NCBI GenBank assembly: GCA_964035545.1
Contig: OZ037768.1
Coordinates: 16,213,375 to 16,277,374 of the forward strand
Source of the DNA: Bugula neritina
Taxonomy: Eukaryota > Bryozoa > Gymnolaemata > Cheilostomatida > Bugulidae
DNA length: 64,000 nt
Reading direction: 5' to 3'
The position numbers and the translations under genes were made by a program. The notes beneath the pieces were generated by a model that searched no databases, was not told the origin of the DNA, and saw nothing but the letters and a program-made list of their open reading frames with translations. Positions 35,298-53,800 of the stretch are shown in pieces; positions within the stretch are counted from its first letter, which is position 1, and the number at the start of each line of letters is the position of its first letter.

Positions 35298-36495
35298 CTA
35301 CTCTATACCATCAAATGACTCAGCTGAACTTTCAATGTCATCAGCACTCAGCATGTCATCACCGTCTGAAGAGGTCAGTGTTAGCCTGGGTATGGTCTGC
35401 CGCAGTCTGAATCTAAAGGAGAGTATAGTGAGTTGTGTATAGTATACGGTGTATAGTGAGCTGTGTATAGTACACCTTATAGTGAACTGTGTATAGTAGC
35501 ACACTGTATAGTAAACTAAATAATAAACTGTATGTTGAATATCATAGTATACTGAATTGTACACTATAAATTATAAAAACTGCTATTGCTCAGCGCTCGT
35601 GCAATGCCTTCAAGTTTTTCCTTTGCAATCAACATATGAAAATTTAAACTTTCAGCCTTCTTATAATAAACAAAGGATAGAAGTATATTTCGGAGACTGG
35701 GAAAGCCAAATTAGCACAGCTCACTTTCTTTCTTGGACGGTTTTTATTTTAGCTGAAAGAGTGATGACCTCCTGCTCTGCCTTCTCAAGGTCGAGGGGAG
35801 TCTCAGATGCCGTAGACATGGTGTCTGACACAGAGGCTATCTCTGATAACGACCCTTCTTCCTGCTCAGTATCTCCTTCCATATGGGTTCTCATGCTAGC
35901 TTTCTTGGAATGGACTCGACTCTGCAGCAGAACAACTTTAAATATCAACTGACAGATTCCGTGGCAAATAACTTATAACAATAGAAAATGTGGATGTGAA
36001 ATAAGTCTGGATTCTAGCAAACTTTAGTAGGAAAATCATGACATTTGGTCATAAAACAATGAGGTGATGCAGTCAAGTAAAATAAGTTAGACGGGTAGAT
36101 ACTGGAGTTGCCATAGCTATTGATGTAGTTGTAGAAATTCTACTTCATACTGGTAACATTGCAAAATCCCATGAGTGCAGCTAATGGTATGCATTCATGA
36201 TGCAATCGGACTAGTAATATATCCGTCGGAAACCAGATTTATTTTTACCTGCATCAAGATTTTTTCTATAAACTAGCATAAATTAGGGAGAGGTTCCCAC
36301 TCAGAATATATACTACAAGTGGTAGAGCATACGTACCGAAGATCCATGCTTTCTCATGCTCTGTCTAACATCTGTCAGTCGATCTTCCAGATTTTGTTCC
36401 TCAGATTCCAGTTGATTAATATCACTGAGAGTCGTATTCAGTTTTCTTAGAGTAGCGTTGAGCATCAGCTCTATGGACCGGCATTGTTTATCAAC
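35298..36495 (-). CDS. MYO9: Myosin IX C-terminal coiled coil and acidic tail
   Basis: Domain-level entry for exons 36337-36495, 35725-35921 and 35298-35412. The first encodes a heptad-like helix ([16 protein letters not shown] and on), likely a short coiled coil as known after RhoGAP in class IX. The rest is Ser/Thr/Glu-rich with [16 protein letters not shown] as a second helix, ending in an acidic tail ([10 protein letters not shown]) and a stop at 35298-35300. No further domain recognised. Confidence 0.85.
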
Positions 36496-39400
36496 CTAAA
36501 ATTATATATTATATACTATACATTATATACTATATACTATACATTATATATTTTCATTACATATTCTAGGTTCTACGAATTGTATCACTGCATTGTTGAA
36601 TAAACTGTTGTACAAACACTGGTTGTCAGATTTAAATGTTGCTTTACATTCTACAATAACATAACAAAGCTAGTTATTCTCACTGATAACACACAAGTCG
36701 CTGGACTACAAAATTTTTATCTTAAAATAACTTTAGCAAATTAAATTTTGCTGATTAAATAAAATAAAGTTTGCAATTGGCCAAGTTGCTATTAATACAT
36801 ATCTCATCTACATCATGTTTACTGAAAGCAAACTAACAAACTTAAGTGTGTGCTGTACACATACCTGGGCCAGACTTTCTTGAGCAGTCATTGGTTTATT
36901 AGTTCTGAGCAGCCCAGGAGCGAATACAATAGCAAGAGAGTTAGGAGACATTCTATTGGTTGCTTCATTCTGTGCAACTCTAGAAAAAGCCAGCCAAAAA
37001 GATGGTAGATTGCCTCATTACTCCAACAGTTGAGAGGGGAATGAAACTATCTAACACAGATTATACTATAACTACCTGGCCAAATGAACCATTAGTCTAG
37101 AGATGATGTTGAAATTGACATGAGGCAGCTTTTCTACTGTGGCTCTCATAGCACCGATGGCCTCTTCCTGGTCAGCTATACCCGGGCAGCGAATAAACTC
37201 ATCATATAACTCAAATGTGAAGAGAGGTTCTGGCAGCTCTCGGAAGAAGTTCTTTAGTGTCTGACTCAGCACATGTACAGCGTAATCAGCCAGGTTGACA
37301 CTCTCCCAGTCTATATGACACAACATGAGATTAGTACAGCTCTAGTGAACTATAAGACTGACAATATGAAATCAGTACAGCTCTAGTGAACTAGGTACGC
37401 CATACGACATACCTGTATCTAAAGCTTTTTGTAATGCCCGGACTTTGCTAGCAATGCCAGCCTTTCTGTAGATACCATCTGCATAGACGCCGCGATTGTC
37501 CAGTTCGGCTATAAGCATCTCGAGTACACCAGGTACGGCATTGTCTTCTCCTGCCAAACGCTGAAGGGGAACTTTGAACACTGCATTAGGCCGTAATTCC
37601 TACGATAAGACAACAAGGCAATAGTTTTAAAACCTCTAAAAATTAATGTCATGAAAAAGTTGGACTCTTTCCTACTGCTGATACTTTGAGAAAAAACCAT
37701 ATGCTGTTGTTGGGCAAAGAGTTGACTTTGAATTTGTATTCTAAAACAACCACAAGAAGTTAGAGCAATGTCTCCCCTTTGCGATGTTATATAACTAATC
37801 AACAATAAAAGATAAATATCAGGTGATGCCTCCTCTCTCAATGGAGACACTTTCAGGAGATTAAATGACTCCAGCATGCCTCACTATTTCATGTTCATCA
37901 CCATCACAAGAACTTGTACTAAACTGAGTCACTCAGCTCTACTGAGTGACTGACCTCTACTGAGTGACTCAACTTTACTGAGTGACTCATCTCTACTGAG
38001 TGATTCACCTCTACTGAGTGACTCACCTCTACTGAGTGACTCACCTCTACTGAGTGACTCACCTCTACTGAGTGACTCACCTCTACTGAGTGACCGACCT
38101 CTACTAAGTGACTCACCTCTACTAAGTGTCTCACCTCTACTGAGTGAATCACCTCTACTGAGTGACTCACCTCTACTGAGTGACTCGCCTCTGCTGAGTG
38201 ACTCATCTCTACTGAGTGACTCATCTCTACTGAGTGACTCATCTCTACTGAGTGACTCATCTCTACTGAGTGACTCACCTCTACTAAGTGACTCACCTCT
38301 ACTGAGTGACTCATCTCTACTGAGTGACTCACCTCTACTGAGTGACTCACCTCTACTGAGTGACTCACCTCTACTGAGTGACTCACCTCTACTGAGTGAC
38401 CGACCTCTACTAAGTGACTCACCTCTACTAAGTGTCTCACCTCTACTGAGTGAATCACCTCTACTGAGTGACTCACCTCTACTGAGTGACTCGCCTCTGC
38501 TGAGTGACTCATCTCTACTGAGTGACTCACCTCTACTGAGTGACCGACCTCTACTAAGTGACTCATCTCTACTGAGTGACTCATCTCTACTAAGTGACTC
38601 GCCTCTACTAAGTGACTCACCTCTACTGAGTGACTCATCTCTACTGAGTGACTCACCTCTACTGAGTGACTCACCTCTACTGAGTGACTCACCTCTGCTG
38701 GTGTCTTCTGGCAATTGATATTAATTTGAGTTGAGCATTTCTTATGGCAAGAGAACTTGCAGTTCTCACACTCGAGGCCTGGTACTCGAATGTTCCAGAA
38801 CATCACCTTGCTACACACCTCACAATACGTGGGCATGGTAAACTGAGTGGAGATAAAACGGTGTCCCAAAATCTTGAGCAGCTAAAAACAGAAAACTCAT
38901 CTTTCAAGCCACTAGTTAATTACAATGTAGTGCATGTCATACTACTCAATATAAAGGGATTGAAGTACATATTATAACGTAGGGCAACTTCAAGCTATTC
39001 CATTATTTGATAAGTTGAGAGTTTAAACCTCAATTATATATCAACTAAAACAGTATCTATAATTATATTCAAATAACAGAAATAACCTGTGACAATGAAA
39101 AGTAACCAACCTCTTTATGCGGCTTTTTCTTGTGCTCTTTAGCTTTTACTTTGGCAGCTTTTCGCTTCAACGGTTTTCGTTTTTTCTGGTATTCATCTAA
39201 ATAACCTCTAAAGGCATTGATCGCTATAGTAGATGGAAAATCCTTGATATTCTCCTCAGAAACAACCTTTGCCACATTTCCTGCCACATAGTCTACAAAT
39301 TCATCCAGGTGCACATATAACAAGTTGGGGAGGATCACAAAAGCCATTTCACTAGACCACATAGCCTCAGGAACTTTAGTCAATATATTCTGATACTTCA

Positions 39401-45400: not shown

Positions 45401-48400
45401 TCCCACGGATTTTACTAAATCATTGTTGACTTTCTGGGGGAAAGGCTTGATAGGTGACTGAGGTGTGTATACCAAATCACTATCCTGAACGGAAGAGTTG
45501 GGTGAACTGTAGCTCTCCGTGCTGGTGATTGAAGGGCTGGGCGGGGACTTCTTCTGCACCACAGGAATGAGCTTATCGTCGTCTAAAATACCGCAGAATA
45601 AAATGTTGTAGTGTTGTCTGGAAGAATTGAAATGGCACATTGTATCAGGAAGGTGGCTGGTGCCCATGGAAAGAGACAAACAGCCAACTAATTAGTAAGT
45701 TTTCATATTAGTGCGGAAGATAACAGCAAAATGTGCAACTCCTTAACTTTTCTCATTCAAAGTAATAATCCACCAACAACAGGCACTCAAATCAACAAGC
45801 TGTGATAAGTTTGAAGTTGCTGTAAAAATGTAACGCCATAATGTTATATGGAGGGCAAAACTTATGGCCTTCGCAAGGTTTGAATGGCGCCAGGAAAAGC
45901 AGGTGAATTAGAAAGTGAAGTATTTACCATGCAAATGGAAAAGAAAACATATCTTACCTTTACAGCGAAACCATTTATAATCATTCAAATCTACCCATTC
46001 ATAACAAATATACAAATTTATGTAAGAAAGTTTAAAAGAGTAAAATTAATAGTGTACAACATAATATTACGATATTGTAGGTGTTGTGTACAACATAAAA
46101 TGTATTAGGACAATTCAAGGTTGTTGAAATCAAATCTATAACTTCAGTATTTTAGGAAAACGCTATTAATTTACATAAAGTTGAGCACTTTCAACAGTGT
46201 AGAAAAAGAGATAAAATAACAATAGACCCTTTTCAGAAGTCCTCAATGTCCCCCTTACAATTAAAAGTTGTATCTTCCCAAAATGAAAGTTGTTGAACAA
46301 AATAAACCTGAACTCATTTTAGTAGTTTTGGTTACTGAGCAATGCTGAAATGCCACTTCAGCATTACTCAGTAACCAACATCACAAAAATGCTTTCAAGT
46401 TTATTTTCTTCAAAATTATCCATGAAGAAATATTTTAAAAACTTTTTTGAACTGCTAATATGTGTGCTTATACCAGAATATCTATCTCCTAAAATAACAA
46501 TTCTATAGCATAATTAGAATTTTAAGTAGCAGCCAAACTTTAAATTTTTAATGAGTTTGCTCCTTATACAAAGGTTTAACCTATTCACTTTGGGAGGACA
46601 CAACTCTTAATTGTAAAGGGAATATCTGGGACCTCTGAAAAGGGTCCATTGTTATAAGAATAAGTTACCCAACATGTAACTCACATCATATGCTCAACTA
46701 CTATAGACATGGCTAGCTTGAATTACTGGTTCTACCAGAAATGGTGGTCAGTGTTAGACTCAGGAACAGCTGCAAGTGTAATGGCTGCTTACCTTTAGTA
46801 CTTCGTCTGCGGAAGGCACTCTTCCTTGTTATGCTAGTGCGGCGTTTCACAGCTTCTCCCTTATTTGTGGCAGCACCAGAAACATCTATAGACGAAACTT
46901 CATCTTTTGCTTCTTGCTGCGACGAGTAGAACAGCAAGTTAAATACAAAGCTAAAGTCTACACACCACCACCAAGCCATCACTTCTAGAGTCTATTATTC
47001 ACTCAAAATAATTTTGAAAATGAATGAAAATGGTTACCTTGTACTTTTCACTAGTGCTTTCTGACAATTGGCTGTCTTTGTCAACAGCAGGTGATTTAGT
47101 CGCCGGACTATGACCATTAATACTGGGTGATTTGGTGTCTATCCAAGACTCTATCATTACCTTAGTAGGAGAGGTTGGCGACTGAACAGCCCCATCCTCT
47201 ATGGACTGGGCAAGCTGGTCAATATCGGTGGTTGGCATAAGTTCAGTTGGCCGATTAGATAGCGTGGCAGCTCTATTCAAATCATACCAATATATCAATA
47301 CACCAATATGTCAATACACCAATATATCAATACACCAATATATCAATACACCAATATATCAATACACCAATATGTCAATACATCAATATATCAATACACC
47401 AATATATCAATACACCAATATGTCAATACACCAATATATCAATATACCAATATATCAATATACCAATATACCAACATCTTAATGAAGTGATATTGATATA
47501 TCAATACACCATTCATGGTATCAAAAAGATTAGAAAACTAGTTATTAAAATATAAATTCAGAATCTCAATCAAAATCTCAGAATCAAAATCGCATGTCAA
47601 AATAAAATATTCTAAGCTGCTTTACCAAGATATAAACTAAATGTGTTTCAAGTGAAAATTGTTTGATACAAATGAAGGTAAGTAAATCTCTTATTTCCCC
47701 CAATATAATGTATAAATTATATTACATCTAACCTTTGTTGAACTTTAGCATCCATAATACGCTTGTGCTTTTTATACCAGCGTTGAATGAGCGTAGCTGA
47801 CTTGTTCTGCAGATCTTCTCTTGCCTTCTGTATCTTCACAACTTTCTCCCTCGCAGCTAGCTCTTCCATTTTCTTGTCTTCTTCTACTCTGCGTTTCCTC
47901 TCCTGTTCCTCCAATTTCAGTCTCTGTTCCAGTTGTTCAGCTTCAATAACTCGCTGCCTTTCCTCCTCAAGTTTTTCCTCCTCTAACCGCTGCCTTTCCT
48001 CCTCAAGTTTTTCCTCCTCTAACCGCTGCCGCAACTTTTGACGGTGAAGCTCTAGTTGAGAGCTGACCACTTGTCTAGTAAGAAAGCCTCTAAAAAATTT
48101 CTAAAAAACACATCAAAGTTTTGCTAAAACATGCATCACAAAACAGTAATTCAGGCTTACAGGTCAGATGCGTCATCATGTGATGAGTCTAGCAGGAGTT
48201 GAGAGAAAGGGGCTGCTAGGTACAGCTGAAGGTACCTGTATTACAACAGCTGAATGCTTCATGTTGGTGTAGCGAGTTCGAGCCAACACTCTTCTAACCC
48301 AGCTCTGTATTCTCAGAATATGCCGGAGTAGAGTATGGTGCAGCGCGTCGTCAAGCAGCATTTTCAACGTCTCTCGTAAAAACACCTGCCAATATGCATG

Positions 48401-50886: not shown

Positions 50887-53800
50887 CAAGTAAGTAAGTA
50901 AGTAAGTAAGTCAGTAAGTCAGTGAGTGACTGAGTTAGTGAGTGAGTGAGACAGTCAGCCAGTTAGGTAAGAAACCACAGTCTACAATAAATTATAAAAC
51001 AAACCTGGAATTGCAGGCTAACACTGGGAGTTTTAGCTTTAGAAGTTTCTCTGTTTTTCACCTCTTGATGTGTCTTAAATTGCTTGTAATCCTACAAATA
51101 ATAGCTACTGATATATCACAGAATTACTGCAGAATTGGTGGTGAACTACACAGCTCTTACATCCATTCAACACACTCTGCTATACTCATTTCATGTTACC
51201 TCCAACAAAACAAGTGTTTTAAAGCAGAGTTTTGCAGACATTACGTTAGTGATAAATATAACTCATTTCATACTACATTTAACATATTAGATATCAAAAT
51301 ACATTTTTTTCATAGTAATAGTAAAATATGCTTCTTTATTGGTAAGCGATGTTTTCATAATACTTCAACAGAGCACATGGAGCAATGTATGCTAATCCAT
51401 ACTGCTGTCATTTCATGTATTATACGAGCAATAGGCCTAGTGGGGAAAAAATGCAAGCAACAAATAACGGTGAAAAAATATGTTTGCGATTAGGTTGTGG
51501 CATCATGTTTTAGCCAACTCACTTTAACAATAAGTTTAAAAGAGAAGACAATTCAGTATATACTGTGAGTCTGCCTGCAGGAATGTAAATTTAGAAGCCA
51601 ACATTATGTTACAGAATAGTACATACTAAACTAGTAGTAATATGTAAACTACCTTGTACATTTTCTGTCTACGTTTAGCACTATGTTTTCGCTTAGTTTT
51701 CTTTGCTGTGTTGTGAATAAATGAGTCTGTATCGTCCAACACTTTATCACCACCTTCATTCTCAGAGTTGTCTGACCATGGAAGATTCCTATTTGGGGTA
51801 AACAAAATAAATTTTATTTCTATAAACTATAGCATATATAGACACATACACGCACACTCTTGCACATATATAATTGCAATATCATATAATTACAATTTAT
51901 ACAAAAACAATATTATAAAATCTTACAAATGCTCTCTTGTCATTTGCTTCTGTGTAACCGAGGTTTTTCTTCTGATATTGCCAATTTTGTTCCCTGCAAA
52001 TGATATGAACTGTTTGAAACATTCTATTACACACATTTTAATAGAAAATTCAAGTACAAAAAACTACTGCAATTTAGTTTATTCATATTAACATTAAGAT
52101 GAGAAAATGGGAACAATATTGCTGTATTGAGTGGGAGTTGATAAGATTATTGGTTTACAAGAGAATCATTTTCAAGTGGAGGTTAATTATTCACTTTATT
52201 TCTTCAAGAGAATAATGAATACAGCTGTGTATTACATAATGAGCAACAACAGTTGAAGTAACATCTTAGGCGTTTCCCAATTTATAAGAATTCAGATATA
52301 AAATCAGTGTACAGCATTTCAATACCCCGATTTCCCATTAATCTTTAAAACAATTGCAACAGTGATTAATGTTAACCAAATAGTTGAGGGTTATTAGTTA
52401 GAAGGAAGAAAACAAGAAGATAAAGCACAGAAAGGGAATAGGAAGAGATAGGCATACATTAAAAGCAATATAGCAAAACTTTCACAATGGGGAAACAGGC
52501 AACTACTAGAAAATAATTAATCTTTCAAAGAATTGTAGAAAATTAGCAATCAAATAAAAATCGCACAATCACACAGTCAAGATCTGAAATTGGTAATAGA
52601 ATAAAACGGTGGGTAATACGCTGTCACTCGTACATTGCTGTATGAGATTTGATGCCCTCTCAGGGTTATCCTTCCTACCTGGTTACAGAAAATTCAACAC
52701 ATCATTATGACCAATACCAAACAAGTATTATTTAGTTCACAAGCATCTTCAAAATTTATACTTGCAAGTTAACAGAGGAAAATAACAGTGGCAGCCCGTA
52801 GCAATGAACAACTAGCTTGTTTATAAAATGCTATCAACATTTATCTAACTAGAAGCATTTGGAGCAGTTTAGTTTGTAAATCACGAGGATACTAGTTGAC
52901 GGTATCTGCTGACGTCACATGACCAGCTAAGCATGGACAAACAGCAAAACAGAGCCTCTGGTTCTAGAAAATGTTGAGAACGTATAGAACTCACCTCCGC
53001 GATCATGATATGTCTTCCCTGCCTGTATGAATGCATTGACACATTTCATACAGAGACGGACATAAGACCAGCGAAGCATTGCTACAGGGTCACATCCTAT
53101 AAATTCATTCAATGTATTTCTCATGGTTAGCTTTCCACTAAATGTTATGGTACTCGGTGCAGTATGAGAAATGTATTACTTCAGATCAACGCCAGGCAAA
53201 TGATGATTAGAGCATTTTAAAATAAGACAACCATTTAAAGCGTACATAACTGTACCTATGCAAAATAATATCGACTGCATCAACTTAAAAGGTAAAGAAA
53301 GAACAAAAGTAATACATTTCATTCATAACAAGGCATGCAATTAAAGAGAGTGCAAATCTCAGACTAGAACAGGTCAGTCAAAGGTGTGCAACTTGTCAAC
53401 TTTAATACAGCTGGAAGACTCCCAGCAGAACATAAACATGTGTGGCCAGTTATATGCCAATACTAATAAACGTTTTCTTGACAAGGTATAAAAGTTAACA
53501 TTGCTGACACTTATGACTTTAGGTGAAGTACATGGAACCACGAGTAAAAAGGAATAGTTAGCACAGTATATGCCCACTGGTGAGTAGTTCACAGGTGATA
53601 TGCTCACAGGTGAGTAGCCACAAGTGAGATGTCCAGAGATGAGGTACCCAGAGATAAAGTAGCCACAGATGATGTGAGCAGTAGTGAACGTTACAGCCAG
53701 TAGTAGCAAAAACTGACCCATGGCATGGTCACACATAGGTTACTAGGTTAACACATATCCGTATACTAACAATACCACAGTTAGGTGGGTTAGACTTATA

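Follow-up and report, generated by a model that had tools for sequence, protein, structure and literature searches.

Tandem arrays of splice donor sequence in a myosin IX intron and elsewhere in the genome of Bugula neritina

Results

A donor minisatellite between the C1 and RhoGAP exons of myosin IX

The window analysed here is a 64,000-nucleotide stretch of the genome of the bryozoan Bugula neritina (contig OZ037768.1 of assembly GCA_964035545.1). It contains a gene in which Pfam identifies a C1 domain, a RhoGAP domain, a motor fragment and an IQ motif (Table 1). Among PDB sequences the RhoGAP exons match myosin-IXb best (6.1e-29), and C1 and RhoGAP are matched strongly at this locus only, all other matches in the genome being 3.3e-11 or weaker. 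On the basis of homology, the gene is confirmed as myosin IX (MYO9). Protein database searches returned no transcripts of the same species among the matches listed, for which the best identities were 44-50%; one same-species search used a repeat-rich query that missed even the window's own open reading frame and is therefore a weak negative.

Table 1. Features of the MYO9 locus and associated repeats. Positions are those of the window, except where a locus name precedes them. A slash marks an exon-intron boundary.
Feature	Position	Strand	Evidence and remarks
C1-domain exon	38693..38881	-	Pfam C1_1 2.1e-14; phase-0 end ...CCA GCA GAG/; acceptor TTTTTAG/CTG and donor in exon model
Final 8 nt of C1 exon (CAGCAGAG)	38693..38700	-	7/8 identical to unit end (CAGTAGAG)
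Host intron	37600..38692	-	1093 nt, of which 774 nt are array; exon model; phase 0
Donor minisatellite	37919..38692	-	43 units of 18 bp, consensus GTGAGTCACTCAGTAGAG; 19 units with GAG/GTGAGT
Unit 1, exon-proximal donor of C1 exon	38675..38692	-	GAG/GTGAGT at 38692
Units 11-21, copy of internal 11-unit duplication	38315..38512	-	identical to units 28-38, offset 17 units
Units 28-38, other copy of internal duplication	38009..38206	-	identical to units 11-21
In-frame TAG in degenerate unit 43	37919..37921	-	translation stop if array is retained
RhoGAP exon 1	37413..37599	-	Pfam RhoGAP 4.1e-6; exon model; phase-0 start GAA TTA CGG
RhoGAP exon 2	37076..37310	-	Pfam RhoGAP 1.2e-20; exon model
36-bp repeat	47947-48030		within coding exon of myosin gene
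16-bp T-rich minisatellite	47286-47474	-	ends ~13 nt before probable acceptor of myosin gene (exon start near 47272, homology unconfirmed)
14/28-bp minisatellite with CTCAC and CTATAC	35423-35517		ends ~10 nt before probable acceptor (exon start near 35412)
Short repeat with CAGGTGAGTAG	53568-53643	+	antisense to myosin gene; donor motif away from known exons
Several ORFs in tandem	2827-25517	+	resemble Cys-loop (nicotinic-type) receptor subunits (by eye)
Second repeat downstream of ankyrin-gene donor array	L055:2014-2400		in-frame open; reads CHVSTGSCHT repeatedly
Largest of the three acceptor-motif arrays	L081:1500-1680		other tandem repeats on both flanks

The original prediction placed an 18-bp minisatellite of 43 units downstream of the C1 exon, with the donor of that exon as its first unit. 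This is borne out by TRF, which reports 43.2 copies with 91% matches on the minus strand, between 38692 and 37919. The edge of the TRF array falls at 38700, inside the C1 exon, whose last nucleotides nearly repeat the end of the unit. The 18-bp unit spans the exon-intron junction of the C1 exon. Fifteen of the 43 units are identical to the consensus. The full donor context GAG/GTGAGT, predicted for about half of the units, is kept in 19, and GT is present in 28; the variant units with ATGAGT that had also been pointed out number ten. The identity of units 11-21 with units 28-38 is a sign of block duplication within the array. A search with a 26-base piece of the unit, allowing up to three mismatches, gave 42 matches in the 215.8-Mb genome (295 contigs), all of them inside the MYO9 array, and the flank of the array is single-copy in the genome. 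Confinement of the unit to this one array suggests that it probably arose there and is not a mobile element. The assembly holds no second haplotype copy of the MYO9 locus that could be used for sizing the array.

Two other minisatellites in the window end shortly before probable acceptors, and one of these carries the motifs CTCAC and CTATAC, which we take to be branch-site-like.

The sequence TGAGTCA, an AP-1 motif, is present in 30 of the 43 MYO9 units, and an array of enhancer elements would account for this number. Among the 14 other arrays described below, however, A9 alone has the motif in its consensus unit and the common element is the donor, and the enhancer reading was rejected on that count; we give it next to no credence. 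The G1A variants in the MYO9 array retain an AP-1-like ATGAGTCA.

Frame, strength and spacing at the MYO9 donors

The frame of the MYO9 gene is open through the array (ORF 37919-38881) up to the TAG in unit 43; in the consensus unit the gene's frame and one other are open and the third has stops. All 18 of the other consensus donors lie in frame ahead of the TAG. With an open frame and a phase 0 intron, each of them would add whole hexapeptides, as had been predicted. The donor of unit 1 has a score of 11.5, the highest of the 14 modelled in MYO9 (the others range from 4.0 to 9.6, using textbook weights and excluding two junctions without a confident donor), and its exact copies score equally. 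The predicted U1 duplex is -10.8 kcal/mol for all 19 consensus donors, compared with -4.5 to -8.3 kcal/mol for 13 other MYO9 donors. The earlier expectation that the extra donors would match the real one in apparent strength is thus upheld at the level of prediction.

Joining donor 1 to the acceptor at 37599 places 47 amino acids between the last C1 cysteine and the RhoGAP motif. The same spacing was measurable in 92 of the 195 relatives listed (120 of 285 plus 75; several are isoforms of one species), and it was 45-53 amino acids in 84 of these and 65-93 amino acids in eight. Because 47 amino acids matches the spacing of the 84, the joining of donor 1 to 37599 is supported. The repeat peptide was found in none of the 195 relatives listed. 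Folding of the RNA was considered as a cause of first-donor choice and was rejected: whether donor 1 is predicted to be more or less accessible than the others depends on the folding window, and 30 shuffled spacers span a range that includes the real one. Where several strong 5' splice sites are occupied the intron-proximal site is often preferred, which is the opposite of first-donor use.

Tandem donors are in excess across the genome

The genome was searched for three copies of AGGTRAGT separated by gaps of 3-30 bases, with the reversed pattern as a control. Triples of AGGTRAGT number 3202 against 85 for the reversed pattern, whilst single sites number 21087 against 11998 (1.76 times). The share of sites that start a triple is 15.2% for AGGTRAGT and 0.71% for the reversed control; as a background, 302 of 34305 (0.88%) of all 8-mers with 3-5 G/C in the window outside the MYO9 array start a triple. 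An acceptor 8-mer, TTTTCAGG, is found in 9319 copies (4548 reversed) and forms eight triples, in three arrays; here one fixed 8-mer is compared with a donor pattern that permits A or G at one place. Among the 100 sites listed for each motif, 44 donor sites and no acceptor sites are in arrays. Judged against the one acceptor motif used, the tandem excess is donor-specific.

Fourteen arrays (A1-A14; loci L047 to L080) were opened from the 100 matches listed of the 3202, all of them on one contig, C1 in our numbering, and in a listing that appears to be truncated for each strand, so that they are not a random sample. Scaling these 14 per 100 matches to all 3202 gives, as a rough figure by simple proportion, some 450 arrays genome-wide, and the MYO9 array is probably one of several hundred donor arrays in this genome.

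Most opened arrays begin at the end of a coding exon

By translation, the array start coincides with the end of a same-strand open-frame exon in nine of the 14 cases, and homology supports seven of these nine upstream exons, one of them weakly. Pfam identifies an ankyrin gene (A4), a caspase (A8) and an OATP (A13), and PDB sequence matches identify PUF60 (A6), an IP3 receptor (A9), a monocarboxylate transporter (A10) and, weakly, a condensin subunit (A12, 2.3e-4). The remaining two are A1, with a sub-threshold Ig match in Pfam, and A3, which has an open frame alone. When eight upstream exons were submitted to Pfam by themselves there was no match in A3, A6, A9 and A12 and only the sub-threshold one in A1; the A6 exon by itself had no PDB match either, and the A3 protein joined to its next exon had none in Pfam. 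A7 and A14 adjoin exon-like frames of the opposite strand, and A2, A5 and A11 are without a clear exon at the array start. The units differ among the 14 arrays. That of the IP3 receptor array includes approximately the last 15 nt of the exon, where the MYO9 unit includes 8. Consensus donors are retained in 15 of ~15 units in A5 and 14 of ~14 in A11, and in 8 of ~17 in A8 and 9 of ~17 in A10. Judged from the DNA and its translations, most of the opened arrays appear to have expanded at the 5' splice site of the gene in which they lie.

These positions bear on the possibility that the DNA motif as such tends to duplicate in tandem, regardless of whether it functions as a donor. The five arrays that are not clearly at a same-strand donor are what this would predict, but the other nine start at a coding exon. 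Moreover, the small excess of single sites over the reversed control suggests that most single sites are not donors, and yet most of the opened arrays are. We consider a fragile motif of this kind unlikely.

First-donor use and the reading frame

Exons flanking three of the arrays were joined from the first donor, at boundaries where the DNA has GT and AG. The joined caspase exons align gap-free through the QAC motif (best 5.3e-20), those of the IP3 receptor align gap-free to ITPR2 over 108 residues (1.6e-45), and those of PUF60 align gap-free across the MC/R junction (1.3e-58). At the protein level, several arrays would therefore seem to need their first donor, the splice choice itself being deduced from these alignments. 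Of the eight arrays for which a phase could be assigned (for A3 by open frame only), seven have no later consensus donor that keeps the frame open (0/69); the exception is the IP3 receptor array, in which five of six later consensus donors are frame-keeping. The array period is divisible by three in four of the 14, as expected by chance. Taken together, the periods and the 0/69 indicate that frame tolerance is not what permits such arrays, and they lend no support to the in-frame period as an explanation for the MYO9 arrangement. Given the periods and frames of the sister arrays, the open frame in MYO9 is most simply, and probably, luck.

The same observations weigh on the suggestion, made in the original prediction, of a length-variable linker, in which MYO9 would use several donors and produce proteins whose C1-RhoGAP linker carries n-1 copies of VSHSVE. 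The frame tolerance on which this was built stands, all 18 later consensus donors being in frame ahead of the stop and the predicted U1 pairing being identical at all 19. The eight of 92 relatives with a spacing of at least 65 amino acids would also bring one to three extra units within the natural range, and a passage of PMC4526556 describes isoforms of human IFI6 that use two downstream units as donors. As an explanation of the array the linker fares badly. By chance alone, one array in three should have a period that is a multiple of three, seven of the eight sister arrays are unusable in this way, the 195 relatives listed lack the repeat peptide, and 24 of the 43 MYO9 units have departed from the consensus donor. 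A regulated variable linker in MYO9 is unlikely, and we regard the linker reading overall as very improbable.

A weaker form, in which the first donor is dominant and a few percent of MYO9 transcripts are spliced from unit 2, 3 or a later one, unpunished by the frame, deserves more credit and is possible, although we doubt it. Equal predicted donor strength and the open frame would both allow such slippage, for which the IFI6 isoforms in PMC4526556 offer, within the passage cited, a precedent; against it, the proteins of the caspase, IP3 receptor and PUF60 arrays require the first donor. As the later donors are frame-keeping in MYO9 (18/18) and in the IP3 receptor array (5/6), leakage at these two would go unseen.

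Discussion

The MYO9 array is likely to be a donor-anchored minisatellite that grew at its own gene's 5' splice site, with the exon-proximal donor mainly used and the other copies removed as intron. A short segment across the junction, comprising the end of the C1 exon and the donor, would have been duplicated in tandem, and growth to 43 copies would have followed by duplication of units and of blocks, a history reconstructed from the present array. Splicing would proceed mainly from the exon-proximal donor, so that the rest would leave as intron and the protein would be unchanged. Provided that the exon-proximal donor is used, duplications at a 5' junction would do no harm and could then expand like other minisatellites. 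Arrays at a 3' junction would place extra AGs before the exon, and are rare.

A rate of 17-21 times background is more than tolerance alone would explain, and there must be a contribution from a fragile motif, from selection for extra U1 sites or from a mutational process specific to donors. More broadly, we propose that 5' splice sites specifically seed or select arrays, such that in hundreds of introns the junction is present at the start in three to about forty copies, as acceptors almost never are, and that the spliceosome reliably picks the exon-proximal site among equally strong donors. This wider proposal is tentative, and our doubt slightly exceeds our belief in it. To our knowledge, neither a donor-specific array process nor a strict first-donor rule has been described before.

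Selection on U1 sites could take the form of a platform, in which the extra donors recruit U1 (and SR proteins) and strengthen definition of the upstream exon, and the arrays are kept for this reason. The donor-specific excess far over background and the retention of a consensus donor by nearly all units in A5 and A11 are in keeping with this, and in a passage of PMC8724738 a downstream 5' splice site is suggested to raise both splicing and double occupancy by U1. Conversely, about half of the units have lost the consensus in A8, A10 and MYO9, and the first donor of MYO9 is already the strongest of those modelled. The MYO9 variant types are also concentrated in the donor hexamer (8/11, p 0.009; 0.0026 in a neutral simulation), the opposite of constraint, in a test that is post hoc and gives 0.06 in its cell-count version; this is a hint that extra donors are selected against in MYO9. 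According to a passage of PMC5389562, poor splicing accompanies double occupancy where 3' splice sites compete. Between them, the passages from PMC8724738 and PMC5389562 make both a helpful and a slowing effect of extra sites possible. On balance we think it improbable that the arrays are kept as U1 platforms.

Several known systems resemble the donor arrays in part. A minisatellite with multiple splice donors in human IFI6 (6-16, G1P3) was reportedly described by Turri, Cuin and Porter in 1995, and its unit is said to be 12 bp and to be located at the exon end. The two minisatellites are alike in supplying several candidate donors, and that of MYO9 shares two traits of the IFI6 type: the repeat starts at the end of a coding exon and 19 of its 43 units are exact GAG/GTGAGT, predicted to be donors. 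They differ in that IFI6 is one human gene with a 12-bp unit, whereas here the unit is 18 bp, the gene is unrelated, and similar arrays occur genome-wide and are mostly out of frame. The original prediction knew of no described example of the arrangement; IFI6, whose minisatellite provides several donors and whose isoforms use two downstream units in the passage of PMC4526556, is a single-gene precedent. A genome-wide, donor-specific class is proposed here from sequence comparison; no description of one was found in the open-licence PMC literature. In DDX3Y, by contrast with these donors, the minisatellite described in a passage of PMC3039753 holds a transcription start.

In intron gain by tandem duplication, the duplicate brings a new acceptor as well as a new donor. 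The duplication of AGGT-containing segments, reportedly the subject of PMC4974935, is alike in duplicating splice-site sequence. MYO9 is unlike such intron gain, since its acceptor at 37599 is a sequence of its own, 319 nt beyond the array, and donors alone multiply. Introner elements, which share one sequence across many introns, likewise affect many introns of one genome, but were rejected because all 42 unit matches (up to three mismatches) lie in the MYO9 array and the units of the 14 opened arrays differ from one another. Recursive (ratchet) splice sites juxtapose AG and GT, as do the MYO9 consensus units; such sites show a pyrimidine at -3, with a polypyrimidine tract preceding the AG/GT. 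They were rejected because -3 is G in 42 of the 43 units and no pyrimidine tract precedes it.

How one of several competing 5' splice sites of equal strength comes to be chosen has long been asked, usually with built minigenes containing few sites. Natural substrates, several hundred of them, appear to exist in the genome of B. neritina as runs of three to about twenty consensus donors; for the majority of the arrays checked, a working protein would result only from choice of the first donor. If the wider proposal is true, there would be a donor-specific mutational or selective process together with a strict first-donor rule. The donor-only excess points to a process that acts at 5' and not at 3' splice sites, and bears on how introns grow.
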